A stretch of 64,000 nt of DNA from Neobacillus sp. PS3-34 (GTDB taxonomy: Bacteria > Bacillota > Bacilli > Bacillales > Cytobacillaceae). Below, one piece after another: positions 3,878 through 63,092 of this stretch. Made by a program: the position numbers and the translations under genes. The stretch is taken from NCBI RefSeq assembly GCF_030915465.1, contig NZ_CP133267.1:4267001-4331000 (forward strand). The letters run 5' to 3'. Positions within the stretch are counted from its first letter, which is position 1; each line of letters begins with the position of its first letter. The notes under the pieces were generated by a model, which did no database searches, had not been told where the DNA came from, and saw only the letters and a program-made list of their open reading frames with translations.

Positions 3878-4785
3878 AAAAGGGATCTCCTTTGGCAAAA
3901 TGGCAGGTGCGCCTGGAATACTGCGCGGTTTTAAATCTATCGATTCAGATGAATAAATCGAAACCGAAAGCATGTTACCCAGACTCTTCGCCCGAATAAG
4001 AACAGGCTGCATGTAAATATTTTTAAAGGTAAAATCCGGGCCATACCAGCTGACAGTGGCATCTCTCCCAGAAGGAACATATGTAACACTTTTCGTATGT
4101 GAATATCTCTGCAAAATTTTCAGCCCCGCATTGTCAACAGCATTGAAAAGGGTAGAGGAAACCTGGCAGATTCCACCCCCAATTCCTTCTGAAAGTTCAC
4201 CACGCACAATGATTGGTGCTTTAAGGTAGCCCTTTACAGCTGTCCGTTTTCCAACGACTTTATTGAAGGAAAATACCTCGCCAGGAAATACAACCTTATT
4301 ATTTAGTGCATTTGTAGCTAATGAAATATTGATTGTTCGTTCACTATTATTAGAATTAAAAAAGGTTGTATACCTTCCAATCAACATCGTTCTTACCGAA
4401 TCCAGCATTTCACTTCCAACTCTTGGATATAAAGTGGTAATGGGCACTTCAATCGTGTATGGTTTGCCTTCAAAAAAATATTCAAGGATTTGACCTGAAA
4501 GAATCTCCTTATTAAGTTTATGGCCAGGCATTTCAGGCTTAATATTGCCTTTTGAATCTATTTGAGCATCTATAGGTTCAAGGTAAACATCTTTATCTAT
4601 TTTGTCTACAATCTCATCCAATTTGTTGCTGCTCGGAAAAACGGCCCGGGAATGGGGAGAAGGCTAATTTCCTCACGAGTAACAACACCAATCGGGCTCC
4701 CATTATAAGTAAACATCAGCGGTACAGCATCCGTTTTAGGAGAAAGGACAGAAAGGAATGTAAATATGACGGACATTAAAAGCAT
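3851..4785 (-). pseudogene. VanW family protein, reading frame broken once
   Basis: The main frame (3851-4621) carries the VanW domain: the GEVFSFNKVVGKRTAVKGY core and GGGICQVSSTLFNA. The preceding frame opens at the ATG at 4785, has an ideal AGGAGGT SD, and starts with a hydrophobic segment and SPIGVVTREE. The two join at GGGCC near 4643-4648. Adding one base gives PGPVFPSSNKLDEIV and an uninterrupted protein of about 312 residues. VanW proteins are extracytoplasmic and often cell-wall linked; their biochemical role is unclear. The break looks like a sequence error of the same type seen elsewhere here. Confidence 0.75.
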
Positions 4786-4973
4786 TACGCAGACCTCCTA
4801 ATCATATTTAGTATGTCTATTTCATATAAAAATTGTGTAAAAAAGTTGTGAAAAATTTAACTTTTAAAAATTCGAAAAGGAAAAAAAGGAAAAAAAAAAT
4901 AATTGATGTAATATTAATAGGTACCATGGAAATGTGTTCCAATATTATAAATGTTTATAAAGGGGAATCTTCA

Positions 4974-5312
4974 ATGAAAGAGATCGGTGAAAAATTGGTA
5001 CAGAAACAGCTTGATGCATATAATGCACAAAACTTGGAGGATTTCGTTTCAGTTTATAGTGAAGATGTAATAGTGATGGAATTTCCATCCAACTCCATCA
5101 TCACTATTGGGATGGAGGAAATGAGAGAAGGTTACAGCCGCCTTTTTAAGGAAAATCCGAAAAACCACGCTGAGCTTCTTACAAGGATCGTAAAAGGAAA
5201 CCGTATCATTGATCATGAATTTGTAACTGGCAGGACAAATGGAATTGACAGACAAGCAATAGCCATTTATGAGATTGAAAATGAAAAAATATCAAAAGTT
5301 TGGTTTTTGTAA
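4974..5312 (+). CDS. NTF2-like / SnoaL-like protein
   Basis: 112 residues from the ATG at 4974, with AAGGGGA 8 nt upstream. The 47 codons that extend the open frame further upstream are low-complexity lysine-rich sequence and are not credible. The pattern (VQKQLDAYNAQNLEDFVSVY ... DVIVMEFP ... IAIYEIENEKISKVWF) is that of the cone-shaped SnoaL/NTF2 fold used by isomerase-like and binding proteins. Substrate unknown. Confidence 0.7.
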   Translation: MKEIGEKLVQKQLDAYNAQNLEDFVSVYSEDVIVMEFPSNSIITIGMEEMREGYSRLFKENPKNHAELLTRIVKGNRIIDHEFVTGRTNGIDRQAIAIYEIENEKISKVWFL

Positions 5313-5358
5313 AAAAAACCCCATTGAGCAGAAACGATCTGCCTCATGGGGTTTTTTT
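5311..5358. terminator. Bidirectional terminator
   Basis: AACCCCAT...GAGCAG / CTGCCTCATGGGGTT inverted repeat with A-run before and T-run after, between the convergent NTF2-like and TetR genes. Confidence 0.8.
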
Positions 5359-5967
5359 AATAGCTAAATTTGAATAAATTAATTTTTTAATGGTTTTAAA
5401 CACGTTTTGATACGGATAATGTTCGTTCCCAAGCATCAAAAAATGGATTGATGCTCCATCTATGAACCCCCAAAATACAAGTGCCAGTTCTTCAGCATTA
5501 GCATCGGAAGGGAACTCGCCATTTAAAATTCCTTCTTCAACAATTCCTTTAAATAAGCCCGTATACATCTGATAACGGGACATCATTAATTCTGATAAAT
5601 CTTCTTTTCTTGAAGAGTAAATCCAAAATTCAATATGTACTCGGGTCGAATTTTGGAACTGAGGAAGGTTATTTAAATTGCTGTACGTTTCAAAAAGATA
5701 ATCCAATTTTTCTTTTGAACAGGATAGACTGCTGATGTTAGTTTTTAAACGCTCCATATTTTCTTCTGTTTGCTGATTCATAAGCTCGATATAAATTTCA
5801 TCTTTACTGTTGAAATAATTATAAATGGCACCTTTGCTAATGCCGGATCGCGTGACAATATCATCGATAGTTGCTGCTTGAAAGCCTTTTTCGGCAAAAC
5901 ATTCAAAAGCATTTTTAAGAATAAGTGCCTTTTTTTCTTTTTTATATTTATCGGAAACAGCTGGCAT
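5344..5967 (-). CDS. TetR/AcrR family transcriptional regulator
   Basis: 207 residues. N-terminal TetR HTH (ILKNAFECFAEKGFQAATID ... SGISKGAIYNYFNSKDEIY, residues about 15-62), then a helical ligand domain. It is divergent from the M42 peptidase operon. A GACTG-AA-CAGTC palindrome in the shared upstream region (6101-6112) is a plausible operator. Ligand unknown. Confidence 0.85.
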   Translation of the reverse strand: MPAVSDKYKKEKKALILKNAFECFAEKGFQAATIDDIVTRSGISKGAIYNYFNSKDEIYIELMNQQTEENMERLKTNISSLSCSKEKLDYLFETYSNLNNLPQFQNSTRVHIEFWIYSSRKEDLSELMMSRYQMYTGLFKGIVEEGILNGEFPSDANAEELALVFWGFIDGASIHFLMLGNEHYPYQNVFKTIKKLIYSNLAIKKTP

Positions 5968-6100
5968 TTTTTCCTCCTATAAAAAACGTAATTAACAACC
6001 ATCATAGCATAAAATTAGGGACAACTTAGATGAAAATCAATTGTTTAGAATTTTTAAAATTAATATTGCTAAGAAGTTTCCTTTATGGTTAAATTAAATA

Positions 6101-6112
6101 GACTGAACAGTC
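6101..6112. promoter_or_regulatory. Candidate TetR operator
   Basis: Perfect 12-bp palindrome GACTGAACAGTC between the divergent tetR (start 5967) and M42 peptidase (start 6182) genes. The half-site resembles GACTG/CCGAC-type TetR family operators. Confidence 0.35.
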
Positions 6113-6181
6113 GGTTTTGCTTATTATAGTCCAAAAAGAAGTATTTTTCAATAGTAGACACTATTTTCAGGAGGATTCTTT

Positions 6182-7261: not shown

Positions 7262-7273
7262 TAAGGAGAAACT

Positions 7274-8134: not shown

Positions 8135-8183
8135 AAGAAATAACGTCCTTATATTGAACATCTAGGGTTTAATTTTTATCTAA

Positions 8184-8216: not shown

Positions 8217-8266
8217 TTTTAGATAAAATCAAGACAAAATAGGATCTTAAAGGGCGGAGTTTTATA

Positions 8267-8912
8267 TTGAAGAAATCCAATATTTCAGATGATCACCATA
8301 TTCACGTTCCTCGGGGCGCATATTTATTTACAGTTCTAATCATAGGTATCCTTCTAAGTATCTTATCAGAAAATTTAACAATAGGTCCGAGCTGGACAAT
8401 TCTTTCTATCATAATCATTCTACTTATACCAATGGTTATAAGTATCGTTCGTGGTCATCATGGATGGACACGAACTTTGGCATTTAGCATAACTGGGGTA
8501 GTTACGTTAGGGTTAGTCAGTAGCGTGGCATTTTTAATTTATGCCTTGTTTCATCATACGGCTAGCGCAGCCAGCTTATTCAGAAGTGCAGCCTTGCTTT
8601 GGTTCGCCAACATAGGAGTTTTTGCTGTATGGTATTGGGAACTTGACCGCGGTGCCTTTGAAAAGGCATAGTGGAAAAAGTGAGACGTCCGATTTTTTAT
8701 TTCCTCAAATGACCTTCAGTATACCTGGATGGGAAAATTGGACTCCTTCATTCTTTGATTATTTATATTTGGCTTTCAATACAAATACAGCGTTCAGCCC
8801 AACAGATACTATGGTTTTATCCAAAAGAGCGAAGATATTTATGATGATCCAATCATCTATCTCCCTACTTATCGTGGCTGTCCTAGCTGCACGCGCAATT
8901 AATATTGCATGA
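8267..8912 (+). pseudogene. Multi-pass membrane protein (DUF1345-like), frame broken once
   Basis: Two consecutive frames form one protein of about 215 residues with roughly five membrane helices. The first (8267-8671) ends ...WYWELDRGAFEKA; the second holds DFLFPQMTFSIPGW ... YLYLAFNTNTAFSPTDTMVLSKRAK ... AARAINIA. They are joined at GGTGCCT (8651-8657). Restoring a GGCCC there reads DRGGPLKRHSGKSET, matching the conserved WYWE-DGGGP element I recall for this family. TTG start with AGGGCGGAG upstream. Function unknown; probably intact in the organism. Confidence 0.7.
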
Positions 8913-8992: not shown

Positions 8993-9012
8993 CATATGGT
9001 TAATGATGTTTA

Positions 9013-10016
9013 TTAGTCAATCTCAGCTACTTTAACAATTGCCTTCCCAAGATTTGCCCCTTTGAAAAGATCCAGGAAAGCATCTATTGTATGGTCAAAG
9101 CCCTCTGTAATCGTTTCCTCATACTTCAGTTTGCCTTCTTTCAGCCAACTTGCCAAATCTTTGGCACCTTCAGCAAAACGAGATGAATAATTGCCAACAG
9201 TAAAGCCTTGCATTAACGAACTCGTCTTAATTAGATAAGATTGTACACGGGCCCGACATCAGCTACCTCGTTATTGTAGGAAGAAATCGCTCCACACACT
9301 GGAATACGTGCAAAGTTGTTTAAGAGTGGGAAAATGTTGTCAGAAATTTTTCCGCCGACATTCTCAAAATAGACATCAATCCCATCCGGGCATGCCTCTT
9401 TTAATGCAGTTCCTACGTCTTGTTTATTGTAGTTGATGGCTGCATCAAAACCAAGTTCATCAAGCAGGAATTTAACTTTGTCATCTGATCCGGCAATGCC
9501 GACCACGCGCGCACCTTTGATTTTCGCAATTTGACCGACAATTGAACCGACAGCTCCTGCAGCTCCTGATACCACCACTGTTTCGCCTTCCTTTGGCTTG
9601 CCAATATCCAATAATCCGAAGTACGCCGTTAATCCGGTCATACCTAACACACTTAAATACGCAGATACTGGTGCGAGTGTCGGATCTATTTTGCGGACAG
9701 CGTTTTCCTTTGCGATTGAATATTCTTGCCATCCCAGTGAACCAAGGACGAAATCACCTTTTTCAAAAAGGCTTGATTGTGATTCCAAGATTTGCCCGAT
9801 TACTCCGCTTGTAATGACATCGTTCAACTGAAACGGTGGAATATACGATTTGGTGTCATTCATGCGGCCACGTAGATAAGGATCCACTGAAATGTAAATA
9901 GTTCGTATTAGTACTTCGCCCGCTGACGGCTTTCCAATTGGTGCATCTGTGATTTTGAAATCATCATACGTAGGCGTTCCTGCTGGTCTATTTATAAGTA
10001 GAATTTGTCTTTGCAT
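9013..10016 (-). pseudogene. yfmJ: YfmJ-like NADP-dependent oxidoreductase (MDR, zinc-free), frame broken once
   Basis: The main frame (9231-10016) closely follows B. subtilis YfmJ: ISVDPYLRGRMNDTKSY, the cofactor loop VVSGAAGAVGSIVGQIAKI and NVGGKISDNIFPLLNNFARI. The C-terminal frame (9013-9240) continues SLMQGFTVGNYSSRFAEGAK to the expected end. The join is at GGGCCC (9249-9254); one added C gives DVGPRVQSYLIKTSSLMQGF, the family sequence. Such enzymes reduce alpha,beta-unsaturated ketones/aldehydes with NADPH in the cytoplasm. Start at ATG 10016 behind GGTGGT. Likely functional, with a consensus error. Confidence 0.85.
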
Positions 10017-18084: not shown

Positions 18085-19485
18085 ATGAAACAAAGTCTTC
18101 TTGGTGCACTATGCTTATCTCTGGCAGCCAGTATCTGGGGCGGAACTTTTGTAGTTAGCAAATATGTATTAGATTACATTCCTTCATTTACATTAATATG
18201 GATTCGCTATTTAATTGCGTTTGCCGTTTTATTCTTTCTTTTAAAAATAAACCCTAAAGAAAGGAAAAAAAAACCTTCAAAAAGTGATTGGCTTTTGCTT
18301 GGATGGTTAGGGTTTATCGGATATTTTGTTTCAATCGCCATGCAGTTCATTGGCACAAAATTATCGGATGCTCATACCGGTGCTTTGATTACCTCGGCAA
18401 CACCTGCATTTATGGTTATATTTGCGAAAATGGTACTTAATGAGAAGCTAACACTAAAGAAAATCATTTCATTAGTGCTTGCTTCTATTGGTGTAATTAC
18501 CGTAATAGGCTGGGACCAAAAACTGGCTAACTATGTTTGGGGCTGTTTCATATTAATTGGAGCTGCTGTTACATGGGCTTTGTTATCCGTCTATGTGAAA
18601 ATCGCCGCAAGAAGACTATCCTCTTTAATGATAACAACCTACGCCATTTTCTTTGCATTCCTTTTCACTACTCCCGCAATGCTTTGGGAGCTAGGCTCAA
18701 GTACCGTCCATGCAAAGGGGTTGTACATCCTTTTGGGGGTTCTTTATTTGGGAGTCGTTTCAACAGCGGGGGCATTTTTTCTATGGAATAAAGGCCTCGA
18801 ATTAATGGACGCCGGTATTGGTTCGTTATTTTTCTTTTTTCAGCCTGTTGTTGGTACTTTTTTGGGCTGGCTGTTATTACATGAAAGACTAAATGCTTCT
18901 TTCTTTATCGGTGCTGCTTTTATTCTGGCTGCAGTATTAATTGTCACTGTTCAAAAGCAAAGAAAGATGTCCATACAACAAAAAAGAGGGATGAAGTTGA
19001 ACAATTTTAAAATAAGAGAAACGAAAGCATCTGATTTGGAATTTTTGTGGAATATGCTCTATGAAGCTATTTATATACCAGAAGGGGAGCCGAAGCCGTC
19101 AAGGGATGTGCTAAATCATCCGGATATATCATGTTGTCTGTCTGGCTGGGGAAGACAAGGAGATTTTGGATTAATTGCAGAAAATTCAGCGGGGCTAAAT
19201 ATTGGGGCAGTGTGGATTCGTTTATTTGAGGAAACAAACAAAACATACGGTTATATAGACGAACAGACTCCGATTTTAAGTATGGCTGTAAAACCCAATT
19301 ACAGAGGCAGGGGAGCAGGAACTCTTTTAATGACAGAAATATTGAAGGCTGCTAGGCAAGCCGGTTATGAAAAAGCGTCATTAAGTGTCGATCCAAATAA
19401 TCCAGCACTAAGACTTTATGAAAGGCATGGATTTAAAAAAACAGGAGAAAGCGGGACATCATGGAATATGGTGACGCTTCTATAA
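18085..19485 (+). CDS. DMT/EamA permease fused to a GNAT acetyltransferase
   Basis: 466 residues. Residues 1-295 are a ten-helix EamA (drug/metabolite transporter) permease: SIWGGTFVVSKYVLDYIPSF, the second EamA repeat at about 150-290, and VLNEKL / LLHERL boundary motifs. Residues about 308-466 are a GNAT domain with AVKPNYRGRGAGTLLMTE and DPNNPALRLYERHGF. Within the junction, AGAGGG lies 6 nt before an in-frame TTG (18997), so the GNAT may also be started separately. The junction has no GGCC-type site, so unlike other breaks here I have no direct reason to suspect an error. SD GGAGGT before the ATG. Confidence 0.8.
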   Translation: MKQSLLGALCLSLAASIWGGTFVVSKYVLDYIPSFTLIWIRYLIAFAVLFFLLKINPKERKKKPSKSDWLLLGWLGFIGYFVSIAMQFIGTKLSDAHTGALITSATPAFMVIFAKMVLNEKLTLKKIISLVLASIGVITVIGWDQKLANYVWGCFILIGAAVTWALLSVYVKIAARRLSSLMITTYAIFFAFLFTTPAMLWELGSSTVHAKGLYILLGVLYLGVVSTAGAFFLWNKGLELMDAGIGSLFFFFQPVVGTFLGWLLLHERLNASFFIGAAFILAAVLIVTVQKQRKMSIQQKRGMKLNNFKIRETKASDLEFLWNMLYEAIYIPEGEPKPSRDVLNHPDISCCLSGWGRQGDFGLIAENSAGLNIGAVWIRLFEETNKTYGYIDEQTPILSMAVKPNYRGRGAGTLLMTEILKAARQAGYEKASLSVDPNNPALRLYERHGFKKTGESGTSWNMVTLL

Positions 19486-19822: not shown

Positions 19823-21080
19823 CTATTTATCTTTAAAGGCTGGATTTGAGGAAGGGAATTTAAAAAGGAATCTCGTGCCTGTTCCCACAGCACTTTCAAC
19901 CTTTATGCTTCCATTCAAAGCTCGGACTATACTGTAAACCACCATCATGCCAAGGCCTGTTCCTTTTGACCCTTTAGTAGAATAATAGGGTTCCCCTAGG
20001 CGCTCAAGTTGTTCCTTTGTCATACCGATTCCTGTATCCTTTATATCTATTATGACAAAATATCTGGAGAATTCGGTGCCAATCGAAAGATATCCGCCGC
20101 CAGGCATAGATTCTATCGCATTTTTAATTACGTTTATGAAACATTGGCGAAATTTCTGCTGATCGCCCTGAATAAAACCGACTGCTGAAAAATTAGTAGA
20201 AATCTCGACTGAATTCTGATTTGCCATCGGCTGAAGAATTTTAATGGCTTGCTGTAGTTCTTTTTTAACATTCAATTCCTGTATTGCCCCTAAGGATGGT
20301 TTCGCAAAAGTTAAATAATCCTGAATAACCCTTTCCGCGGCTTTTAATTCTTCCTTAACTAAGGCGAGGTATTCCTTTTGTTTTTGCTTCGGGAGGAAAT
20401 CATCCTGCAGAAGTTGAACAAAACCTGTAGCAGCTGTAAGCGGATTTCGAATTTCATGGGAAATGGCAGCCCCCATTTGTTCGACTGCCTGGAGTTTTTC
20501 TGTTTTGATTAGCTGGTGTCTCATATGAATATTCCGTCTTACAAATTCGAATGAATAGGAAATAATGCCGATACCAAGCGGAGGAATGACCATATAAGCA
20601 AACAAGGCATCGAACCAGTAAATTGGTGATTTAATAAACCCCATTCCAAGCACCGTAATGGTACTTACTATCATGCCTAAACAAACTGAAAAGAAAATTC
20701 GACGGTTAGGACTATAGTTTGAAAAGATTGGGTATTGGCGCCATAAATAGAATGCCAACGGCACATATAAAAGCAGGGTCTCGATAAAACCAAAATCTAT
20801 TCCATAAAATCCCCGAATAATAACTGCAGCAATAGATAAAATGGCCAATCCCTAAATAAAGACCTCCGATTACCAGAGGTATTACCCTCACATCGTATCG
20901 TGCAGATGCGACAGGATGGTATGCGAATTCAATACAGGTCCAAACCAGGAAAATGGAAATAAGTATTGTAGAGGCTTTGGAAAATTCTGAACTCCTGCTT
21001 TTTTCATACCAAACAAAACAAAAAAACAGGAAAATAATTAATAACGAAAGATTAAAGAAAAAATGTTTGGTAATTTCCAT
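19823..21080 (-). pseudogene. Membrane sensor histidine kinase (5TM-type), copy 2, frame broken once
   Basis: About 420 residues once joined. The N-terminal frame from the ATG at 21080 (SD TTTGGAG) gives the first membrane helices and PLVIGGLYLG. The second frame (from about 20845) continues LSIAAVIIRG with more helices, then HisKA SHEIRNPLTAATGFVQLL, NVIKNAIESM, DTGIGMTKEQ and GTGLGMMVVYSIV. The break is at GGCC (20843-20846); GGGCCC would restore the frame. Paralogous to the kinase at 16732, 2 kb away on the other strand. Also an orphan without an adjacent response regulator. Confidence 0.8.
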
Positions 21081-21340: not shown

Positions 21341-22369
21341 CTATTTCTCATTTTCATCCTTCATAATTTCTGAAACAATTTGATAAGAGTTTAATCGCTC
21401 ATTATGATCAAAAATTTGAGCATTTATAATCATTTCATCTGCCTGTGTTTCAGTGAGAAAAGCCTGAAGTTTTCCCTTTACTGTTTCCTTGCTACCGACA
21501 ATGGACGAACTAAGACGCTGCTCTAATAATGCTCGTTCATATTCGCTTGAAATATCGTTTATATTGTCTACAGGCGCCATGATTGGCCTGGATTATTTCT
21601 GATAAGGTTAAGGAACTGCTGTTGCATGGAGGTTGAAAGGAATTTTGCTTTTTCATCTGTATCGGCGGCAATCACATTAACTCCAACCATAGAATAAGGC
21701 TCACTAAGAACTTCTGACGGACGGAAGCTCCGGCGATATAAATCCAATGCCGGTATTGTATTTTCAGGTGAAAAATGGCTGGCAAAGGAAAAGGGCAGAC
21801 CGAGCTGGCCAGCAAGCTGAGCACTATAGCCACTCGAACCGAGAAGCCAAATTGGTAAATTTAATCCTTCTCCAGGAATGGCTCTTACAAATTTTTTTAT
21901 AGATGGGTCGAAGTAGCTGCGTAGTTCCTCCAATTGTTCAGGAAAGTAATGGCCATCACTTCTTCTGTCTCTTCTTAATGCCTGTGCTGTTACCTGGTCA
22001 GTTCCGGGAGCACGGCAAGGCCAGGTCAATCCTTCCAGGAAATAATGATTCTAGTGTGCCAAATTGTTCTGCAATCACTAGTGGTGCATGGTTGGGCAGC
22101 ATGATCCCACCGGAACCGACACGGATGGTTGAAGTACCGGCTGCCACATGGCCAATGACAACGGAGGTAGCAGAGCTTGCGATCCCCGGCATATTATGGT
22201 GCTCAGCCAACCAGTAACGGTTAAAACCCCATTTTTCGGCGTGTTGTGCAAGGTCAAGTGTATTGCGGAGGGAGTCAGCTGCTGTTCCTCCTTGTATAAT
22301 TGGGGAAAGATCAAGCACTGAATATGCCATATTCCTTAATAACTTTCCGTTCGTATTTATTTCTGACAT
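21341..22369 (-). pseudogene. LLM-class flavin-dependent oxidoreductase, frame broken twice or more
   Basis: Three consecutive frames rebuild one bacterial-luciferase-like monooxygenase of about 345 residues. N-terminal [19 protein letters not shown] and [18 protein letters not shown], middle [16 protein letters not shown] and LGSSGYSAQLAGQLGLP, C-terminal SSSIVGSKETVKGKLQ. Breaks are at 22012-22022 (two sites; the family reads GLGRAPGTD where bases are missing from GGGCC and GGCC) and at GGCC 21585-21588 (restores NPGPIMAPV). It would use reduced FMN and oxygen; substrate unknown. Very probably intact in the organism. Confidence 0.8.
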
Positions 22370-22619: not shown

Positions 22620-23209
22620 ATGAGTAAAGTATTGCCCCCGGCCAGTTTGAAACGGAAAAGTGGCCTATACTGCATAAAGGGGATGTCTATTCCTTCAACA
22701 GAACATTTTGGGATTTTCGTCTATTTGGTGAGGTGAAGGAAGAGGTTAGGCTTTCTTTTAAGGAATTCATGGACCTTCCAAAAACCATTACCACGATTGA
22801 TATGCATTGTGTTACTACCTGGTCAAAGTTCGGTACAACGTTTGAAGGTATCAGGATAAGTGAACTTTTAAAGCTGGTTGAACTTAATGAAGATGTAAAG
22901 TACGTCAAAATTTATGGTTATTATAATGGTGACCGTTTTGGCTATTCAGCCAATTTACCTCTTGAACCTTTAATGGGTGACGATGCGTTGTTTGTTTATC
23001 GCTGGAAGGACCATCACCATGACTGGCAGAATCTTGATCCGAAGCACGGCTATCCGCTCAGATTTATCCCGCCAGAAACTTTTTACTTATGGAAAGGGAC
23101 CAAGTGGGTGTCAGGAATCCGTTTTATGAAGGAAGACGAGGAAGGCTTTTGGGAGGAACTTGGCTACTCAATGACGGCAAATCCTTTTAAGGAAGAGCGC
23201 TTCCGATAA
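22620..23209 (+). pseudogene. Molybdopterin-dependent oxidoreductase (sulfite oxidase fold), frame broken near the start
   Basis: About 196 residues. ATG at 22620 with AAAGGAGG 7 nt upstream gives MSKVLPP, then the frame shifts at GGCC (22640-22643). With one G added it reads LPPGQFETEKWPILHKGDVY, the usual start of the YuiH-like family. The body has DMHCVTTWSKFGTTFEG (the Mo-ligating Cys), HGYPLRFIPPETFYLWKGTKWV and GIRFM. These small proteins keep only the Mo-cofactor domain. No membrane partner is adjacent. Confidence 0.8.
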
Positions 23210-23777: not shown

Positions 23778-24637
23778 TTGAAGGAGAGAGAAGGGTCAGA
23801 AGTGTGGATTGCGGCAGCATTTGTAACGACGCTTAGTTTTGGAGCAAACAATACGCTATTTAAATGGAGTACAGGTATCGGGCTATCAAAGGTACATATT
23901 CAGTTTGTTTTTTATTTTGTAGCTTTCATGCTGACGCTGGGCTATGGAATGGCAGATCATTCATTGCATCTTAATCTGTTAACTATTTTAATCGGGGCTT
24001 TAATTGGGATTCTGAATGCAAATGGCAATATTCAAATGTCCAGTGCTTTCGAAAAGGGCCAGCCAGTTTAACATCCCCTTTGATAGGTGCTAACGCTATT
24101 TTTCCTATTCTTGGTGCAGCGTTCATTTTTCATGAGCATATTTCAGCCATGCATTGGTCAGGAATTATTGTTATTCTAGGATCGGCGTTAATGATTCAAT
24201 ATTCACCGAAAACAAAAGGAAATACAGAGTATGGTCCGTGGCTTATCCGTGTCTTATTCGCGATATTGTCATTTGGTACTTTAGGAATTTTGATGAAGAC
24301 ATCCTCCTACCTGCATATCAGTTCATTGAATATTCTCATTTGTATGTATGGCGGAGGAAGCATTTACCTGGCAATTAGAAGCATCCGGTCGAAGGAGAAA
24401 TGGAATCGTCGCGAAGCCAAAATGGGAATAGTGTCAGGGCTTGTCAGTATCATCGGGTATAGCAGTTATTTTTATGCACTGCAGGATGGAACAGCGAGCA
24501 TCGTTTTTCCGATTGTTAGTTTGAATTGCCTTGTAGTCGTGCTTGCAGGTTTGTGGCTTTTCAAAGAAAAGTTAAAGGTATATCAGTTAGTAGGAATTTT
24601 TTCGGCTTTGCTTGGGATTATTTTTACAAAAATATAA
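23778..24637 (+). pseudogene. EamA/DMT family transporter, frame broken once
   Basis: About 287 residues with ten predicted helices in two EamA repeats. The first frame ends ...SSAFEKGQPV at 24071; the second continues MIGANAIFPILGAAFIFHEH to 24637. The join is at GGGCC (24056-24060); one added C gives EKGPASLTSPLIGANAIFP, the standard DMT sequence. Start TTG at 23778 after GGAGGA (short spacing); a GTG a few codons later is an alternative. Exports an unknown small metabolite. Confidence 0.8.
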
Positions 24638-28229: not shown

Positions 28230-28749
28230 CCTTGTACATCTGGTACATTATTCGTGCAACCGGAACAATTGCATATATTTTAATGTATGTGACTGTATTA
28301 TCCGGTATATATTCTCAATATGCTAAAAAGAAGAAGAAGAAAATTAATAACGTCCTTTTTCTACATGAAAAACTTTCAGACTGGACACTGATTCTTACTA
28401 TTTTCCATGTTTCCTTATTATTTTTGGACTCATATGACTCACTTACCTGGCTGGAAATCCTGATTGCTTTTCAAACGGATTATAAGCCAATAGGAATGGC
28501 AACAGGGATAGTGGGTCTTTATTTCTTAGGTTTTACTATGATAACATCAAAAGCCAAGAAAATAATAGGCCATCAAGTATGGAAAAAACTGCATGGACTT
28601 AACCCCTATTATATGTTCTGGTAACAATCCATGGTATTTTTCTTGGAACAGATACACATGCAGCATTTTATATTGCTTTAAACATGATCCCATTCTTACT
28701 AATTATCATGTCGTTGGTTAAAAAACAGGCTATTCAGCCCTCGGTATAG
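28226..28749 (+). pseudogene. Ferric-reductase-like heme membrane protein, frame broken near the C-terminus
   Basis: About 174 residues. The first frame (28226-28624) has four hydrophobic segments with His in helices (LHEKLSDWTLILTIFHVSLL), the b-type heme pattern of the ferric reductase/YedZ fold, and WKKLHGLNP. The downstream frame continues PLLYVLVTIHGIFLGTDT and a last helix to a stop at 28749. One extra C in the CCCC run near 28603 joins them; this site is a C-run rather than GGCC. The ATG overlaps the apbE stop by 4 nt. Probably delivers electrons across the membrane for the ApbE-modified partner. Confidence 0.7.
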
Positions 28750-28752
28750 AGA

Positions 28753-28801
28753 AAAAGGTGACAGGCACCATCCAGAAAATTGGAAGGTGCCTGTCACTTT
28801 T
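28753..28801. terminator. Bidirectional terminator (AGGTGACAGGCACC type)
   Basis: AAAGGTGACAGGCACC / GGTGCCTGTCACTTT inverted repeat between convergent operons. A sequence-related hairpin lies at 30812-30856. Confidence 0.8.
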
Positions 28802-28812
28802 ATTGACATGCT

Positions 28813-29409
28813 TTATACTGCTTTTTTGAGATTTTTAAATTGTCCTTTAGATAAAACCGTTCTTTCAAGTCTGTGTGCCAATAAGCCGGCACATACAGAT
28901 AAAATGATATCTTTTGGAAGCGGAACCATCATCCAGCCCCAGGCAACTTTATATGGAATTGCTTTCGGTACTGCAAACCAGAATTTGTACGCAAAGTACA
29001 TCCAGTTCGTGCCGACAAAATAGTTAATCGCAAGGCCAATCAGGGCAGCAATAATAAATGCAGGAACACTCTTATATTTCTCAACAATTTTCCCTGTAAA
29101 GAATGCTACCAAAATAAAAGAAAGTATAAAGCCAAATGTCGGCGCCAGAATGATTGAAACTCCGCCGCTAAATTCTGAAAACACAGGAACGCCAACTAAT
29201 CCCACTAGAGCATAGACCACCATGGCAATGCTTCCTACTCTGCTGCCAAGAACTAAACCTGCAAGAACAGCAAAAAAGGTTTGAAGTGTGATTGGTACCC
29301 CTCCAACAACCATAAATGGCGCGATATTCGTAATGTTTGCCCCAATTGCCATTAGTGCTACAAACATTCCTGCCAGTGTTAAGTCAATCGGTTTTAGACT
29401 ACGTTTCAT
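28813..29409 (-). CDS. bioY: Biotin transporter BioY
   Basis: 198 residues from the ATG at 29409 (SD GGGGAAG 7 nt upstream). Six membrane helices of an ECF-transporter S-component. BioY motifs: GANITNIAPFMVVGGVPITLQTFFAVLAGLVLG (here residues about 22-54), GGVSIILAPTFGFILSF and WM-P-KD near the C-terminus. It captures biotin and works with a shared ECF energising module encoded elsewhere. An imperfect TTGTT...AACAA dyad upstream (about 29424-29446) could be regulatory, but its spacing does not fit a standard BirA box well. Confidence 0.88.
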   Translation of the reverse strand: MKRSLKPIDLTLAGMFVALMAIGANITNIAPFMVVGGVPITLQTFFAVLAGLVLGSRVGSIAMVVYALVGLVGVPVFSEFSGGVSIILAPTFGFILSFILVAFFTGKIVEKYKSVPAFIIAALIGLAINYFVGTNWMYFAYKFWFAVPKAIPYKVAWGWMMVPLPKDIILSVCAGLLAHRLERTVLSKGQFKNLKKAV

Positions 29410-30813: not shown

Positions 30814-30856
30814 AGGTGAAAGGCACCATCCAATTTTTGGATGGTGCCCGTCACCA
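30812..30856. terminator. Terminator of nrnB (AGGTGAAAGGCACC type)
   Basis: AGGCACCATCCA / TGGATGGTGCCC hairpin starting at the stop codon. The left arm is nearly the same as that at 28754. Confidence 0.6.
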
Positions 30857-30881
30857 GTTAAAGGCAAAAATTTAATCAGTG

Positions 30882-31721: not shown

Positions 31722-32602
31722 TTACACCCGATAATGATTATCCAGGAACGATTTGATATCGGCATTCATCTCATTTTTGACCTTTTCAGCAGGAAAATGG
31801 CCGATGAAAAAATCTTTGCAGAAATGAGATTAGGAATGATTTTTTTGGCAGTTGGTATTATTTTATCACTCGGGAAAAATACATCATTTGTGCCAGCAAT
31901 AACAAGAGTTGGCGCTTGAAAATTAACCAGTTCTTCCGCGTCTGTCAGCTTTGGCATTTCGTCAAACTTAATATAGTTGAAAATATCTCCGATAATTTCT
32001 TCATCGATTTTCTTCATGCTGTTAGCTGACATTCTGTCCGCAATTTTTTTTAGATGTCGTTCTGAACCTGTCATTTTATATAAGGTAAGAGGCAGAAGAA
32101 TTTCTTTTATCAAAGTGGCTTTTGAGCCGATAGCAATTCCAGCAGGTGATACCAGGATCGCACATGAAATCCTTTCTGGCAGAAAAGCCGCCAGCCGTAA
32201 TATCATCCCTCCTCCAAAGGACGGGCCGATAAACGCACTTTTCTCCAAATTAAAATAGTCCATTAAATCAGCAATCCATAAAGCATAGCTGTTATCCTTC
32301 CCGGACAGTCTGGTTTCATCACTGAAACCTGGATGCCCAATTGTATCTGATGCGTAAATGCGATACTCGCATAATAACGGTTCAAACCAGGAAAGTGTCA
32401 TTGGACTTATGCAGTTTCCACCTTGAAAAATAAACAACGGCTTACCGTCTGCAGGCCCAGTAATCAATACATGTGTTTTACCAAAGCGCGTTTTAACATT
32501 CACTTCCTCAAACTGGGAATCCATATTAATTAAATATGTACGATAACGGTCAGCAATCCTTTGTTTTCCGAGCTCACTTTTATAAATGGTTTTCTTTTTC
32601 AT
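31722..32602 (-). pseudogene. Alpha/beta hydrolase, frame broken near the C-terminus
   Basis: About 293 residues. Oxyanion region IFQGGNCISP, nucleophile elbow GPSFGGGM (Ser about 128), acid region APTLVIAGTNDVFFPSD. The main frame ends with unlikely sequence at 31766. Inserting one G at GGCC (31799-31802) gives SSGHFPAEKVKNEM..., which supplies the catalytic His (GHFP) and a normal end ...DNHYRV at 31722. Start ATG at 32602 with AAAGGG about 10 nt upstream. Substrate unknown. Confidence 0.75.
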
Positions 32603-33413: not shown

Positions 33414-34537
33414 TTATTTCCAAATTGCCCACCATTTCTTTGAGTGGTCTTTTGCAGATGCTGCGTCCCTAAAGGTCACAATTAGATTTTGAAAAATCTC
33501 TTCGCGATGCGATATTTCTTTACGGAACTGGTCGTGAACATGATTAATGGTTTCAATATAATAATCACGATCAGTATTAATGCTCTCGAGCAATTCTCCC
33601 GATAAACGAGCCATATTATTTTCCAGGTTCTTTACACGGCTTGATGTATATTCAGTTGCCTTTGCAATGCTCGATGAAAGTGCTTCAACTGTTTCATAGG
33701 TATGCTGCGATACCGCTTCGATGCTGTCAGACAGGGAATCAACCGTTTCAGAGGTATGTTCCGAAGCTTGCGCAATACTGCTCGAAAGGGTTCCGATTGT
33801 TTCGTAAGTATGTTCTGAAGCTTTAACAATATTATTTGAAAGAGCTTCTACAGTTTCAGCAGTATGGATAGATGTTCTGGCAATTTTGCTCTCCAGGCTC
33901 TTCATTTTTTTTGAGGTATATTCGGAGGACTTTGCAATACTTTGTGAAAGCGTTCCGATTGTTTCGGAAGTACGTTCCGAAGACTGGCCAATTGATTGGA
34001 AAGACTCTTAATTTCATCTTTTGTTTTTTCAGTAGACTTATAAATTGAATCTGAAAGGCTTTTCACTGTTTGCATTGTGCTTTTCGATATTTCTTTCCGG
34101 ACTTCTTCTACGAATTCCTTGCGGACACCATTTCGCAATTGTCTTATTTCGTTTAGCAGACTTTCCTTGTAGGTTTCCAGATACGCATAAATATCAGGTG
34201 TCGGGCTATCAATTTGATGATTGGTTGGTACTTCAATTACAGGAGAAATTTCGGTTCCGAATGATTCGGATGCCTCATGAACGGAATGCTGTCCCTTGTG
34301 TTTTTCAAGCAGTTCCCGAATCATTTCCTTGCCAAGATTTTTTTCTCTCATTTGTTTTATCTTTAAAAGTAAAGAAATTTCTGTTTCAGTGTAGTATCTT
34401 GCTCCCTGTTTTGTGCGGGGGATATTTAGCAAACCAGTTAAGTCTTTTTCCCATTGCCGGATTGTCCCAGTGGGAACCTGAATGATTTTAGAGACTTCCT
34501 TAATCGTATGCGCTCTTAAAAAGGTGCTTTCTTTCAT
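33414..34537 (-). pseudogene. RacA-like MerR protein with eight 18-residue repeats, frame broken once
   Basis: About 374 residues after one base is restored at GGCC (33986-33989). MerR-type HTH at residues about 8-55 (TIKEVSKIIQVPTGTIRQW, RYYTETEISLLLKIKQM), a linker, and helix to 164. Residues 165-308 are eight tandem 18-residue repeats of the form IAKASEHTSETVESLSSS, with hydrophobic residues at positions 1, 12 and 15 and Thr at 8. The restored join falls inside repeat 2 (LAQSSERTSETIGTLSQS) and fits the repeat exactly. A C-terminal helix ends in WWAIWK. Probably elongated and DNA-binding; function unknown. It sits just upstream of racA. Confidence 0.75.
33615..34045 (-). repeat. Coding tandem repeat, 54-bp unit x 8
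   Basis: Encodes the 18-residue repeats. Units in protein order begin IYKST, LAQSS, IAKSS, IARTS, IVKAS, IAQAS, IEAVS, IAKAT. DNA copies are diverged, so the array looks old and selected at the protein level. 18 residues equal five helical turns, so the hydrophobic stripe would run straight along one helix face. Confidence 0.75.
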
Positions 34538-37536: not shown

Positions 37537-40509
37537 ATGAAGAAAGGTTAACCTTTCATTTTAATGGAAAGGAATATACCGCGAAACAGGGCGAGACGAT
37601 ACTTGATGCTGCCAGGGAACAAGATGTATTTATCCCTGGGATTTGTTATCATCCCAATCTTGGAACGATCCAGACTTGTGATACGTGTTATGTCAATGCA
37701 AATGGAGAAATGGTCCGATCCTGTGCAACAAAGGTTGAAAGCGGGATGAAAGTTGACACAATTTCGGAGCCGGTAAAGGAAGCACAATATGAGGCTATTT
37801 CAAGGATTTTAAAAAATCATGAACTTTACTGTACGGTTTGTGACAATAACAATGGCAATTGTACCATCCATAATACGGTTGAACTGATGGAGGTAGAACA
37901 TCAAAAATATCCTTTCGCGGCGAAGCCGTACCCACCCGATAATTCCCACCCCTTTTATAGATATGAGCCGGACCAGTGCATTCTTTGCGGAAGATGCGTG
38001 GAAGCCTGCCAGGATCTGCAGGTAAATGAAACACTTACGATTGATTGGAGCAAGGAGGTACCGAGAGTTATTTGGGATAATGATGTGCCAATTGACCAGT
38101 CTTCCTGCGTTTCCTGTGGACATTGTGTAAATGTATGCCCTTGTAATGCCTTAATGGAAAAATCAATGCTTGGCAATGCAGGTTTCTTAACTGGCATTCC
38201 TCCGAGGGTACTTGCTCCCATGATTGATTTGACAAAGGAAGTGGAACCTGGATATAGGGAGATTTTTGCTATTTCTGAAGTCGAAGCAGCTATGCGGCAG
38301 GCGAGAATAGAAAGGACGAAAACTGTTTGCACATATTGTGGAGTTGGCTGCAGCTTTGAAGTCTGGACAAAAGGGAGGGAAATTCTAAAAATCCAAACAC
38401 AAACGGAAGCACCGGTTAACGGTATTTCAACCTGTGTAAAAGGGAAATGGGGCTGGGATTTTGTCAATAGTGAAGAACGTCTGACAAAGCCGCTGATTCG
38501 AAAAGGCGAGGAATTTGTTGAAGCAACCTGGGATGACCTTAGCCTAGTTGCCAGCAAACTGTCTGAAATAAAAGAAGAGCATGGAGCGCACTTAATTGGC
38601 TATATAGCCTCCTCAAAATGTTCTAATGAAGAAAATTACTTGTTCCAAAAATTCGCCAGGGCGGTTATGGGATCTAATAATGTGGACAACTGCTCGAGAT
38701 ATTGCCAGTCCCCAGCAACAGCCGGATTGATGAGAACGGTTGGTCTTGGGGGGGATTCGGGTACAATCGAGGACATTATGGCTTCCGAATTGATTGTCAT
38801 TGTCGGGGCTAACCCTGCTGAGTCCCACCCTGTGTTAGCTACCCGTATCAAGCGTGCCCACAAGCTTCACGGACAGAAACTGATAGTTGCTGATTTAAGA
38901 GAAAATGAATTGGCCAAGCGCGCCAATTTCCATGTCCATCCGAAGCCAGGAACAGATCTGATATGGCTGAATGCTGTAACAAAATATATTATTGACCAGG
39001 GCTGGCACGACATAGAGTTTTTATCCAACCGTGTTAACGGTGTAGAGGAATATTCCCAATCGCTCGAAAAATTCACACTTGAATATGCAGAAGAAAAAAC
39101 AGGGTTAACTAGAGAAGAATTATTGACACTCGCAAATATGATTCACGAAGCAAAATCTGTTTGTATGCTTTGGGCAATGGGTGTTACACAACACATGGGT
39201 GCGACTGATACGAGTACGGCTATTTCAAATCTGCTCTTGGTTACAGGCAATTATGGACGAAAGGGAACAGGGGCTTATCCTTTAAGAGGTCACAATAACG
39301 TTCAGGGGGCATGTGATTTTGGAACAATGCCAGCCTGGATGCCGGGCTATGAACCTGTTCAGGATCCGGAAGTACGTGAAAAATATGAAAAGGCTTGGGG
39401 GGTCTCTCTCCCTGAAGAACCAGGAATGGACAATCACCATATGGTCGAAGGAATGGATAAAGGCAAGCTTAAGGCCTCTATTTGTTCGGTGAAGATATGG
39501 CACTTGTTGATGCTAATTCGAATCATGTGGAAGCAGCATTTGAAAAATTGGATTTCTTTGTGGTCCAGGATGTTTTCTTCAGCAGAACGGCACGTTATGC
39601 TGATGTTATTTTACCTGCAGCTCCAAGTCTTGAAAAGGATGGAACCTTTACGAATACAGAGAGGCGGATTCAGCGTTTCCACAAAGTTTTTGAGCCACTG
39701 GGTGATTCTAAGCCAGACTGGAAAATTTTTCAAGAGGTCGCGAACAGACTTGGAGCAAACTGGAGCTATGAGCATCCTTCAGAAATTATGGCCGAAGCAG
39801 CCAGCCTGGCTCCTATTTTCTCTGGTGTAAGCTATGAGCGTCTGGAAGGATGGGAATCACAGGTATGGCCGGTGTCGCCGGATGGCAAAGATACTCCTCT
39901 TCTGTATAAGGATCGCTTTCCATTTCCGGACGGAAAGGCAAAACTTGTTCCAGTTGATTGGACCCCGCCATTCGATCCAGGAGAAGAGTTCGATCTTCAC
40001 TTAAATAACGGAAGGCTGCTAGAGCATTTTCATGAAGGCAATATGACGTATCGCAACGAAGGCCTGACCCATAAGGTTCCATATCCATGGCTGGAGGTCT
40101 CGTTACAGTTGGCGTTAGAAAGGGCCTTAAGGACGGCACTTTAGTAAAATTGACTTCCCCATACGGTGAGGTCGAGGTACGTGTAATGGTTACAGACAGG
40201 GTGAAAGGTAATGAGCTGTATCTGCCAATGAACACACGTGATGAGGAGCAGGCAGTTAATCGACTCACTAGCAGCTATCACGATATTATTACCCATACGC
40301 CAGCCTACAAGGAAATGGGTGTCCGAATGGAAGTCCTCGAAATAGAAGGGGAACCGCCATTGCCGAAGCATAATCACCGCTTTGGAAACAGGGTACCGCA
40401 AATCAGTGTCAAAGTAGAAGAAAAGTGGAAAAGAGAAGACTTTACACCGATTGAAAATCTAATTGATTTAAGGGGGGATGAATATGGCGAGGGCAATTAC
40501 GCAAATTAG
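37533..40509 (+). pseudogene. Formate dehydrogenase catalytic subunit (FdhA/YrhE-type), frame broken twice
   Basis: About 992 residues after repair, the length of YrhE/YjgC. N-terminal 2Fe-2S ferredoxin (CYHPN, CDTC and RSC cysteines, residues about 37-65), a His-Cys3 cluster (YCTVCDNNNGNC), two 4Fe-4S motifs (CILCGRCVEAC, CVSCGHCVNVCPC), then the molybdopterin domain with CTYCGVGC and SRYCQSPATAGL, where Cys stands in the position of Sec in E. coli FdhH. The C-terminal domain is in two further frames. Breaks at GGCC 39473-39476 (restores LKALYLFGEDMALVD) and GGGCC 40122-40126 (restores LERGLKDGTLVKL). NAD or another acceptor subunit is not encoded nearby. Confidence 0.88.
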
Positions 40510-44340: not shown

Positions 44341-45248
44341 ATGTCTGCTTTTATTCATGTAGAGCAAGTTTCAAAGAGTTATGAGTCTCAAAAGGTTTTA
44401 AAAAACGTATCCTTTTCAGTTGAAGAGGGAAAGGTTGTAGGCCTCCGAGGCCCAATGGCGCTGGAAAAACAACCATGATTCGATTGCTTAATGGTGTCAT
44501 TGAAGCAGATGGAGGGAAAATGAGCGTCGGTGGCTGGAATCCAGCTGTCAATGGGCATGAGATCCGAAAAATGTGCGGAATATTAACAGATGGAGCCGGC
44601 CTTTATTTTGAAATGTCAGGCTTGGAAAATTTAGAGTTTTTCGCCAGGATATACGGTGCGTATGATAGAAAAAGAATACAAACGCTGCTTGAGGAGTTTG
44701 CTTTGGCAGAGCATCAGAATAAAAAGGTGGGGCTATACAGCACAGGAATGAAGAAAAGGCTGGGGATGATTAAAGCATTGCTTAATAAGCCTCAATTGTT
44801 ATTTTTGGATGAACCTACGAATGGGCTTGATCCAGAGGGAATCCGCCTGGTTTATGATTATGTAACCAAATTGAATCGGCAGGAAGGAACGACCATATTT
44901 CTTTGTTCTCATATTCTGCATCAGCTTGAGAATATCTGTGATTCTTTCATGTTCCTCGAAGGGGGAAGTATCCTTGAAAACGGAACAAAGCAAGAGCTGG
45001 AAGATAAATATGTAACAGAAGTACGATTAAGAGTTGAGACAGGGCTGCCAATTTTGTCATCAACCTGGAACGGATACCCCGTCCGCGATTTGGGATCTAC
45101 TGGCTTGGAATTCACTTTGCTAAACAAGGGATCCATTGCGCCTCTTCTTCAAAAAATTGCGGCTGAATCCTGGATCCATCATGTAGAAATTGAAAACAGG
45201 GATTTGGAATCTCTATACTTTACGATTCGGGGTGCAAGCAATGAATAG
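44341..45248 (+). pseudogene. ABC transporter ATP-binding protein, frame broken inside Walker A
   Basis: About 302 residues. The first frame starts at the ATG at 44341 (GAGAGGAGC upstream) and reads EQVSKSYESQKVLKNVSFSV, then shifts at GGCCC (44449-44453). One added C gives LRGPNGAGKTTMIRLLNG, a complete Walker A. The second frame has the signature LYSTGMKKRLGMIKALL, Walker B LLFLDEPTNGLDPEG and the H-loop SH. The family is that of ABC-2 exporters (CcmA-like). It overlaps the permease gene by 8 nt. Confidence 0.85.
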
Positions 45249-61140: not shown

Positions 61141-61237
61141 CTAATTTATACAATTTGCAAACAAAACAGTAAGCAGTTTTTTCATGATAGGTTAGGGTGA
61201 TATTATAGCCATGATAATTGATAAAGGAGGTAAATGA

Positions 61238-61747
61238 ATGAGCAAAAGATCAACCAAGATTTCTATTTTTATAGCAATGCTTTTGATATTAGGCTTTGTA
61301 GTAGCACTGTGGCATAATAATACTGCTTTAGCTGACAATAAAGCAGTTAATAAAACAGCTACTGCTGCGAGTATTATGTCTAAATATTCCGTCAAAGATA
61401 ATGACCAAACGCAAGCACCTATACGTAAGGGGCGTTTAAATCAAATTAATTTTGTCACCGAGGCAGCACAAATTCTTAACGTATTACCTATTACGATTAT
61501 GCAGGAAATGGAAAAAGAAAAAACAGTTGTACAGATTGCGCAAGAAAAAGGATATAGTAAGGCTGAGTTTTTACAAAAATTAACCGACTTAGAGAACAAA
61601 ACTATAAACGCAGCAGCCACTTCCGGCACAATATCACAAAAACATGCAAATGCCTTACATCAAGGGCAAGCAGATCGTTTGAAATATAATCTCGATCTCA
61701 AGGCGGTTAATGTTAATGATCATCAGGCAATGGATATGAACCACTAA
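61238..61747 (+). CDS. Small exported protein with Met/His-rich C-terminus
   Basis: 169 residues; signal peptide or anchor about 8-33 (ends ALADN). The mature part is helical with VLPITIMQEMEKEKTVVQIA and KGYSKAEFLQKL, a pattern seen in secreted Bacillus proteins with repeated short helical modules. It ends NDHQAMDMNH, a possible copper-binding tail. AAAGGAGGT SD. Located 98 nt after the multicopper oxidase with no terminator seen between them. Confidence 0.65.
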   Translation: MSKRSTKISIFIAMLLILGFVVALWHNNTALADNKAVNKTATAASIMSKYSVKDNDQTQAPIRKGRLNQINFVTEAAQILNVLPITIMQEMEKEKTVVQIAQEKGYSKAEFLQKLTDLENKTINAAATSGTISQKHANALHQGQADRLKYNLDLKAVNVNDHQAMDMNH

Positions 61748-61788
61748 TTCAAATCTAGAATTTGAATTACAGAGTGTAATAGAAACGA

Positions 61789-61830
61789 AAACCTAATCCT
61801 TTACTACAGGATTAGGTTTTTTCTTTTTAA
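61789..61830 (+). terminator. Terminator after the copper cluster
   Basis: AACCTAATCCT / AGGATTAGGTT perfect stem followed by TTTTTTC. Confidence 0.8.
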
Positions 61831-61869
61831 TGAATTTCGAAATTAAAATGATATCTCCAACTTTTTAGA

Positions 61870-63092
61870 TTATGCTTCTATCGTGTCTTTGCTGAGTATC
61901 TGATGCTCCCGCTTCATATTTATCCGCATTGCCCAAAGGAAGTATGCTGTACCTAAACTGATATAAAGCAAACCTCCGGCGAGTCCCATCATCCTAGGAG
62001 AAATCGTTTCAAGCAGAACCCCGGTTAAAAACATAGAAATGCCAATGCACGTATTCGCTACAGTTGCAGAAAAAGCAAAATAGGCCCATGCAGCCATGAT
62101 GGCATGGTTTCCATCACGGCTGTATCCATTAACGTATTTCCAACGCCACTGAAGACAGTCAGTATTCCAAACATTATTACTACGAGTGCAAAGGAATGGA
62201 CCTGGCTAATGGAAGATAAAACCACTCCTTCCATAAGGAGGCATAAAAATGCAAAGGGAAGATAATAATTTCTAATTTTTGAAGAAAGTATGGGGCTAAG
62301 AATTAACCCAGTCCCAAGCACACTGTAAAGAATTCCAACTCCCAGTCCCCCCATATGAAATACTTTTACGGCGTAGACACTTAACAGGACATTTTCTATT
62401 CCATTAATCAAAGGGTTCAACAAGTCGAATGTCAACAGCATTAATACAAACGATGAGGCAAGAGCAAGTGAAAGAATACCATTTTTCTTAGGAACTTCAT
62501 GTCTTGTTGTTTGAACTTCTTTTGATTCCAGAGTAGGAATAGAACTTATTATCCAACCTGCCGATACAAACGACAAAATATTAATTACAAAGGCAGCACT
62601 TGGCCAACAAAAATGCAACGACTCCACCGCTCAATGCCCCGATTATTAATACAAATCCTAAAGAAACTTGTTCCCACGAATTCACTTCCTTAATGCGGCC
62701 AGTTTGAACGATGGCGGGAATGCCTGCTTTCCTGGCTGGACCATACAATGCTTCACCAGATGAGAGTAAAAATGAGCCAGTATACACAATCCACATATCA
62801 TCTGCAGTATTGATAAACAAAAAAGAGATGGCAATTATTGCTCGAATAAAATCAGTGGTAAACATTAATTTTTTTCTAGTCCATTTATGGGCAAATTTGC
62901 TGCTTAAGGGCCGAAAAGGAGAAAGGGAATCATTCGCAATCCCATCGTAATACCCACTGCCATTCCCGACCCTGTAATTTCCAAAATGATTGTCAGTAAT
63001 GCAACCTGACTGAAACGATCACCGATACCATTAACAATTCCAGCAAAGAATAATTTCCGATAGGAGTTTTCCTCTTTTAGGGTTTGAAACAC
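61870..63092 (-). pseudogene. MFS transporter, frame broken three times
   Basis: Four consecutive frames rebuild one 12-helix major facilitator of about 409 residues: SYRKLFFAGIVNGIGDRFSQ at the start, GSFLLSSGEALYGPARKAGI, PLINGIENVLLSVYAVKVF, VFSGVGNTLMDTAVMETMPSW and FSATVANTCIGISMFLTGVL. Breaks are at GGGCC 62908-62912 (restores FGPLSSKFAHKWTRKKLMF), GGCC 62602-62605 (restores LLGPSAAFVINIL) and GGCCC 62083-62087. GTG start at 63092 with GAGGTG. Substrate unknown; a drug or metabolite exporter is likely. Confidence 0.8.

Follow-up and report, generated by a model that had tools for sequence, protein, structure and literature searches.

The question raised by this locus is why so many genes in the window, the whole 64,000-nucleotide stretch of DNA analysed here, are interrupted by frameshifts, and why the interruptions gather on a single tetranucleotide. 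A first-pass annotation had placed 16 breaks on GGCC and had attributed them to consensus errors. At 15 of the 16 positions, a GGCC begins on the listed base or one base after it, and at 13 of these 15 sites the frameshift-aware protein-to-DNA alignment with the syntenic relative G003 places a frameshift at most 5 bases away. The claim therefore stands for most of the positions and fails at 8652, where GGCC is absent within 15 bases and throughout the stretch shared by the two open frames. Eight alignments, drawn from five genomes (G002, G003, G005, G014 and G016), concur on the frameshifts at 39473 and 40122, and that at 44449 is backed by four alignments from two genomes. At the other two GGCC sites, 4643 and 31799, open pieces in two frames abut, one of the two pieces in each case has a Pfam match, and no relative's alignment spans the site. 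The features are as follows, with no strand assigned except where one is given.

4643..4646, GGCC at a reported break in a VanW-like gene, frameshift unconfirmed (GGCC present, abutting open frames, Pfam match in one piece)
8616..8671, forward strand, overlap of two open frames at site 8652, without GGCC
9250..9253, GGCC at the frameshift of a curcumin-reductase/YfmJ-like gene (alignment to G003)
20843..20846, GGCC at the frameshift of a histidine-kinase-like gene (alignment to G003)
21585..21588, GGCC at the frameshift of a luciferase-like monooxygenase gene (alignment to G003)
22019..22022, GGCC at the second frameshift of the luciferase-like monooxygenase gene (alignment to G003)
22640..22643, GGCC at the frameshift of a gene without NCBIfam match (alignment to G003)
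24057..24060, GGCC at the frameshift of a gene without NCBIfam match (alignment to G003)
28608..28608, frameshift without GGCC nearby, the only such event in the window (alignment to G003)
31799..31802, GGCC at a reported break in an alpha/beta hydrolase gene, frameshift unconfirmed (GGCC present, abutting open frames, Pfam match in one piece)
33986..33989, GGCC at the frameshift of a gene without NCBIfam match (alignment to G003)
39473..39476, GGCC at the frameshift of a formate dehydrogenase alpha-like gene (eight alignments, five genomes)
40123..40126, GGCC at the second frameshift of the formate dehydrogenase alpha-like gene (eight alignments, five genomes)
44449..44452, GGCC at the frameshift of an ABC transporter ATPase gene (four alignments, two genomes)
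62083..62086, GGCC at the frameshift of an MFS transporter-like gene (alignment to G003)
62602..62605, GGCC at the second frameshift of the MFS transporter-like gene (alignment to G003)
62909..62912, GGCC at the third frameshift of the MFS transporter-like gene (alignment to G003)

Compared with G003, 10 of the 34 aligned genes in the window are frameshifted, with 14 events in total, all of the missing-base type. A GGCC lies within 12 bases of 13 of these events (the exception is 28608), and a random position in the window has a GGCC comparably close 2% of the time. The effect had been described as partial, which agrees with the intact site at 6953, located inside an unbroken aligned frame. 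The majority of GGCC sites are likewise intact: 264 are read as GGCC across the 126 kb covered by aligned genes.

The enrichment extends beyond the window. The alignment of ORFs with at least 45% identity and at least 60% coverage over 324 kb gave 52 frameshifts spread over 43 of 137 aligned genes, where missing bases were the dominant error type; 32 of the 52 have a GGCC within 12 bases, compared to 2.34 expected (P ~4e-30). GGCC was the most enriched among the tested 3- to 5-mers, and it remained at the top even where no third G or C was read. In a homology-free scan, excluding switches that resemble overlapping genes, GGCC was found at 28 of 79 frame switches in the 324 kb (6.5 expected) and at 52 of 110 in 20 other stretches, which cover 400 kb elsewhere in the genome (8.9 expected). 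When the overlap-like switches are included, the values become 40/152 (12.5 expected) and 63/166 (13.5 expected), respectively. GGCC ranks first of the 136 4-mers in both scans of this genome, with no other 4-mer close to it, and a scan with a model trained per genome gave 49 of 109 switches with GGCC (8.9 expected).

These tallies bear on the possibility that the events are ordinary random or homopolymer long-read errors, with GGCC as a by-product of runs of G and C. Such errors may contribute: among the 20 frameshifts with no GGCC within 12 bases, 15 have GGC or GCC (7.7 expected) and 7 lie near a homopolymer of at least 5 (3.3 expected), which indicates that other error kinds are present too. 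In addition, GGGCC is depleted to 0.60–0.61 of expectation, compared to 0.86 in the relative, a deficit that the collapse of the run in a GGCC-linked error would equally predict. However, the k-mer and homology-free tallies, in which GGCC stays ahead with or without a third G or C, make this possibility very unlikely as the source of the pattern. The alternative motif GGNCC, which had also been suggested, was not borne out, as only one of the 20 events that lack GGCC has a GGWCC nearby (0.41 expected). The avoidance of GGCC itself was rejected as evidence; it is the most under-represented 4-mer, at 0.69 of expectation in the first sample, yet the value in the relative is 0.77, so that its under-representation proves nothing and the deficit of GGGCC alone is specific. 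In the reverse control, where our ORFs were aligned against G003, GGCC lies within 12 bases of 5 of 19 events, compared to approximately 0.9 expected at the rate of the genome's own genes; these events are presumably errors on the side of this genome viewed from the opposite direction.

The reading of the breaks as consensus errors was corroborated by genes that cannot be dispensed with. The single-copy rpoB gene is interrupted at a GGCC. Within this one genome, the rRNA copies also vary from one to another at conserved GGCC sites, where they depart from the relatives as well. For 23S, the 30 copy-sites at six GGCC sites conserved in two relatives include 13 length changes and 8 sequence-only changes. 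For 16S, the 20 copy-sites at four sites conserved in three relatives include 4 length changes and 2 sequence-only changes, and at two further sites 4/5 and 5/5 copies are shorter than in all relatives. Among themselves, the genome's own copies differ in length solely at or beside GGCC. The length differences away from GGCC comprise 40 cells in 16S, all in one stretch where the five own copies are identical, and 11 cells in 23S, of which 10 are common to the five copies and 1 is directly beside a GGCC. The fragmentary or part-masked rows L029–L033, L039 and L040 and the truncated L110 were left out of these comparisons, with L029 retained in one of the own-copy comparisons. Since the copies vary also in the bases flanking GGCC, the claim that every lost base is a G or C belonging to the core does not hold, and some of the base swaps may reflect genuine variation among the copies.

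The same data weigh on the view that the frameshifts are real mutations, arising for example from a GGCC mutation hot spot produced by a restriction-modification system. The frameshifts do stand in the record, and several relatives concur on the frame. However, with a single-copy rpoB split and conserved rRNA sites changed differently between copies, the breaks cannot be real; moreover, deamination of 5mC yields base swaps, not missing bases. We regard this view as scarcely credible.

A GGCC-type methyltransferase in the strain, as had been predicted, is supported by homology. The genome encodes a single PF00145 protein, 0.45 Mb from the window, which is a relative of the GGCC methyltransferase M.HaeIII (E 4e-61); PF01555 is absent from the genome in a search with these two families. 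The protein aligns to M.HaeIII (1dct) over residues 136–422 of 444, which includes the C-terminal region as in HaeIII/BsuRI-type systems, and its alignments to M.HhaI end at 284. It is thus, as judged from homology, a predicted C5-cytosine methyltransferase with a HaeIII-like target-recognition region, so that the strain would have a methyltransferase directed at GGCC. A divergent, full-length type II restriction gene lies 50 bases away (REase_II PDLC03444, E 5e-240); it differs from HaeIII/BsuRI-type systems in having no match in PDB, Pfam or NCBIfam. The best PADLOC family for the methyltransferase is Druantia DruM2 (E 8e-123), followed by MTase_II (E 1e-97), so that the methyltransferase and the restriction gene may not form a matched pair. 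The length of BsuRI is 576 residues. As a separate observation, a GGCC methyltransferase had been predicted from the 64 kb alone before it was found 0.45 Mb away.

Alternatively, long-read errors at GGCC might be intrinsic to the sequence or the base-caller, and the HaeIII-type gene would then be coincidental. This is consistent with the available text of PMC12345217, in which almost all Nanopore discrepancies in two Pseudomonas aeruginosa isolates fall on GGCC, mostly as G-to-A, and GGCC methylation is not consistently found; only a minor fraction of GGCC sites is affected there as here, whereas here missing bases dominate and a HaeIII-type methyltransferase gene is present. However, six other assemblies show no enrichment of GGCC at frame switches, a comparison that assumes similar platforms and polishing. 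In G003, GGCC was found at 2 of 30 switches (2.4 expected), or 4/70 (5.5 expected) when overlap-like switches are included. In G013, G024, G027, G330 and G022, which are in one or two contigs each and thus probably based on long reads, the pooled value is 2 of 62 (approximately 4.1 expected; model trained per genome). G003, G013, G024 and G027 have no PF00145 protein, G330 has no homologue of the HaeIII-type methyltransferase, and G022 has two PF00145 proteins, 34–37% alike. The shortened 16S string occurs in one other of 397 genomes of the order, a search that is not fully informative since many drafts lack 16S (5/8 in one subset). That genome, G390, has it once, at a contig end, and was rejected as a second case, as the methyltransferase homologue is also absent. 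Together with the fact that the only PF00145 enzyme here is of the HaeIII type, these results make an intrinsic error unlikely.

We therefore prefer a methylation-linked long-read consensus error at GGCC, to which we assign a probability of about 0.9, with the platform and the methylation both deduced indirectly. The single-contig 4.9 Mb assembly suggests long-read data. By homology, the strain carries a chromosomal HaeIII-type methyltransferase gene with an adjoining type II restriction gene, and the enzyme would methylate GGCC throughout the genome. The modified GGCC and its immediate neighbours would be misread alike across many long reads, most likely from Nanopore, and the consensus would then drop, or less often add or swap, bases at a fraction of the GGCC sites. 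The frameshifts are then false and the genes intact in the cell, which holds by necessity for rpoB and rRNA and probably for the others.

Methylation-linked consensus error is a known class, and Nanopore errors centred on GGCC have a published precedent in PMC12345217. According to the available text of PMC10687267, Nanopore consensus errors cluster on a short motif of strain-specific modification and persist after polishing, as proved with amplified DNA and hybrid assemblies. The errors gather on one short motif in both cases; the motifs there are GCTGG and GCAGC with mismatches instead of indels, whereas here the motif is GGCC, mainly bases are missing, and the effect is known from the assembly alone. 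A study of one draft long-read assembly also describes false frameshifts in a high proportion of genes, and the word methylation and a link to a motif do not occur in its available text. Within the literature collection searched, no paper was found that joins HaeIII, nanopore basecalling errors and methylation. Relative to the available part of PMC12345217, the new element is that a candidate methyltransferase accompanies the GGCC errors.

This case shows that a finished assembly can, through the motif shared by its errors, indicate an enzyme encoded at another site of the same genome. It is somewhat more probable than the contrary that uncorrected consensus errors are, in general, a lasting imprint of the methylome, from which the frameshift motif of a finished assembly foretells methyltransferase specificity. 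If this is true, public long-read-only genomes would allow bulk mapping of these specificities and the flagging of false pseudogenes. For the present record, 43 of 137 aligned genes, about a third, look broken although most of them are probably intact, and rpoB and rRNA are affected, which makes the record unreliable as a source for counting pseudogenes, assessing gene content or comparing 16S. For 20 of the 43 broken genes, a Pfam/NCBIfam run was conducted, and the relatives' genes have an NCBIfam match at 1e-20 in 16 of the 20.

The sampled DNA of the strain consists of the window, which covers positions 4267001-4331000 of the 4.90-Mb single-contig genome, and of 33 stretches of 20 kb, 20 scattered over the genome and 13 adjoining the window without gaps, amounting to about 0.72 Mb; the window and its 13 contiguous stretches form a region of 324 kb. 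A comparison with one protein gave Bacillus sp. FJAT-49736 as the closest named relative found, at 78% identity. The genes in this region were compared with the 283 non-overlapping ORFs of at least 100 codons on contig 67 of the relative G003, which is syntenic with the window. In total, 137 of the 283 ORFs were aligned at a median identity of 76%, and 52 frameshifts were found over 43 genes, with one base missing in 34 cases, two missing in 10, one extra in 7 and two extra in 1.

Of the 52 frameshifts, 32 have a GGCC no more than 12 bases away, compared with 2.34 expected from random positions within the same genes (P about 4e-30), which bears out the first-pass annotation's claim that gene breaks cluster on this motif. 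No other 3-, 4- or 5-mer occurring at 4 or more events is as strongly enriched. Measured from the GGCC centre, 20 events fall within 4 bases (0.8 expected), 33 within 12 (2.7 expected) and 33 within 20, so that the excess is tight around the centre. The 20 events without GGCC include other error types. As the aligned genes contain 264 GGCC as read against the 32 GGCC-linked events, only a fraction of the sites is affected; extrapolation of 32 events in 126 kb would give on the order of a thousand genome-wide.

In the window alone, 14 events were found in 10 of 34 aligned genes, with GGCC at 13 of them. Sixteen breaks had been placed on GGCC there; the motif is present at 15 (offset 0 or +1), and none occurs within 15 bases of 8652. 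Frameshifts at 13 of these GGCC sites were recovered by alignment to relatives, where 4643 and 31799 are outside the relatives' coverage, and eight alignments from five genomes agree on a frameshift near 39473 and near 40122.

A homology-free scan was performed using a codon-usage frame model, where switches resembling overlapping genes were excluded and GGCC was counted within 25 bases. GGCC was found at 52 of 110 frame switches in the 20 scattered stretches (8.9 expected) and at 28 of 79 in the 324-kb region (6.5 expected), and in both sets it topped the ranking of 136 4-mers. On G003 contig 67, scanned in the same way, there was no excess (2 of 30, 2.4 expected). With the model trained separately on each genome, the values were 49 of 109 for the strain (8.9 expected), 2 of 33 for G003 (2.7 expected), and 0/14, 1/21, 0/6, 1/15 and 0/6 for the comparison genomes G013, G024, G027, G330 (one contig each) and G022 (two contigs), where about 4.1 were expected overall. 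These scans indicate a GGCC signal that extends across the genome and that was not seen in the six other assemblies. No PF00145 (C5 methyltransferase family) protein was found in G003, G013, G024 or G027, and no homologue of the strain's methyltransferase in G330; G022 has two PF00145 homologues, 34-37% alike to it.

All rpoB matches fall at one genomic place, and the profile match follows one open frame to position 519 and another from 520, with the switch point on a GGCC. Because loss of rpoB would be lethal, this split indicates that the breaks are not real. The broken genes of the 324-kb region (20 of 43 looked up) include relatives of pyruvate dehydrogenase E1 alpha and asparaginyl-tRNA synthetase, the latter as two copies:

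4351322-4352777 (genome), plus strand, asparaginyl-tRNA-synthetase-like gene 1, with its own G003 match, frameshifted
4358718-4360193 (genome), minus strand, asparaginyl-tRNA-synthetase-like gene 2, with its own G003 match, frameshifted

The pair lies about 6 kb apart in opposite directions, and the family was assigned via one of the two relatives.

The alteration in length of the rRNA copies at conserved GGCC sites likewise indicates that the breaks are not real. Among 30 copy-sites in 23S (five full-length copies, six GGCC sites kept in 11 copies of two relatives), length is altered at 13 and sequence alone at 8; among 20 in 16S (four sites kept in 10 copies of three relatives), the values are 4 and 2. 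At two further 16S sites, where one relative is substituted, 4/5 and 5/5 copies are shorter than all relatives. Every length difference among the five full-length copies is at or beside a GGCC of the strain's or a relative's sequence. Both the core and the bases beside it are affected, which explains why GGCC is often read intact at breaks. Of 397 genomes from the order, two carry a shortened 16S string, this strain in four copies and G390 in one contig-end copy, where drafts without 16S (5 of 8 checked) are uninformative. The G390 copy lies at L134:217-233, in a genome from another family of the order; no methyltransferase homologue was found in G390.

A GGCC-type methyltransferase had been predicted for the strain, and the genome search yielded a candidate: METHYLTRANSFERASE, an ORF of 444 residues near 4.779 Mb, is the sole PF00145 protein. 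Of the solved structures, M.HaeIII (1dct) matches it best, at E 4e-61; this alignment spans residues 136-422, a range that includes the target-recognition region, and alignments with M.HhaI end at residue 284. Among PADLOC families, Druantia DruM2 comes first (E 8e-123) and MTase_II next (E 1e-97). A divergent 573-residue gene, separated by 50 bases, covers 572 of the 576 positions of PDLC03444, a PADLOC family for type II restriction enzymes (E 5e-240). Homologues of both genes are common in Bacillaceae, and for 29 of 66 restriction-gene entries (P0003-P0068) the length of the longest contig recurs among the methyltransferase homologues listed, a by-eye count and rough proxy of pairing. A Vsr mismatch endonuclease fragment without its N-terminal part lies nearby; Vsr is a usual companion of C5 methyltransferases. 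The surroundings, L004:9006-19982 (genome about 4.774-4.785 Mb), resemble a defence island, which holds, besides the restriction gene and the Vsr fragment, an HNH-type gene in pieces in two frames, a Cas4/DruK-like nuclease and an ORF resembling the C-terminal half of Druantia DruE.

The most likely chain runs from methylated GGCC through base-calling error to consensus error. The signal from whichever few bases occupy the reading head would be shifted by methylation; identical base-calling errors would then arise across many reads, and the consensus would retain the shared error. A long-read platform, GGCC methylation and the link of both to the errors are what we infer from the assembly. GGGCC is depleted to 0.60-0.61 of expectation, compared with 0.86 in the relative. 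The product of HaeIII-type methyltransferases is GG-5mC-C on both strands (PMC7559349), motif-specific Nanopore errors are documented (PMC10687267), and Nanopore errors at GGCC are reported for P. aeruginosa, with no GGCC methylation identified there (PMC12345217). The motif is the same here; however, this genome has a candidate enzyme, and it adds a further example of an already known type of error, found from the assembly alone.

Other features were seen in the window. Two intergenic hairpin repeats of one family (28735-28820 and 30795-30870), about 50 bases long and about 90% alike, have more copies in the strain's stretches L006 and L018 and many short matches in the comparison genomes G016 and G002, and none in the G003 stretches. 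At 18085-19485, a GNAT acetyltransferase domain and two EamA transporter domains are joined in a single ORF. The segment 54645-61140 holds an ORF with a CopC and a CopD domain and, 0.9 kb further on, the gene of a protein of 1305 residues in which multicopper-oxidase domains and fibronectin type III domains occur together.
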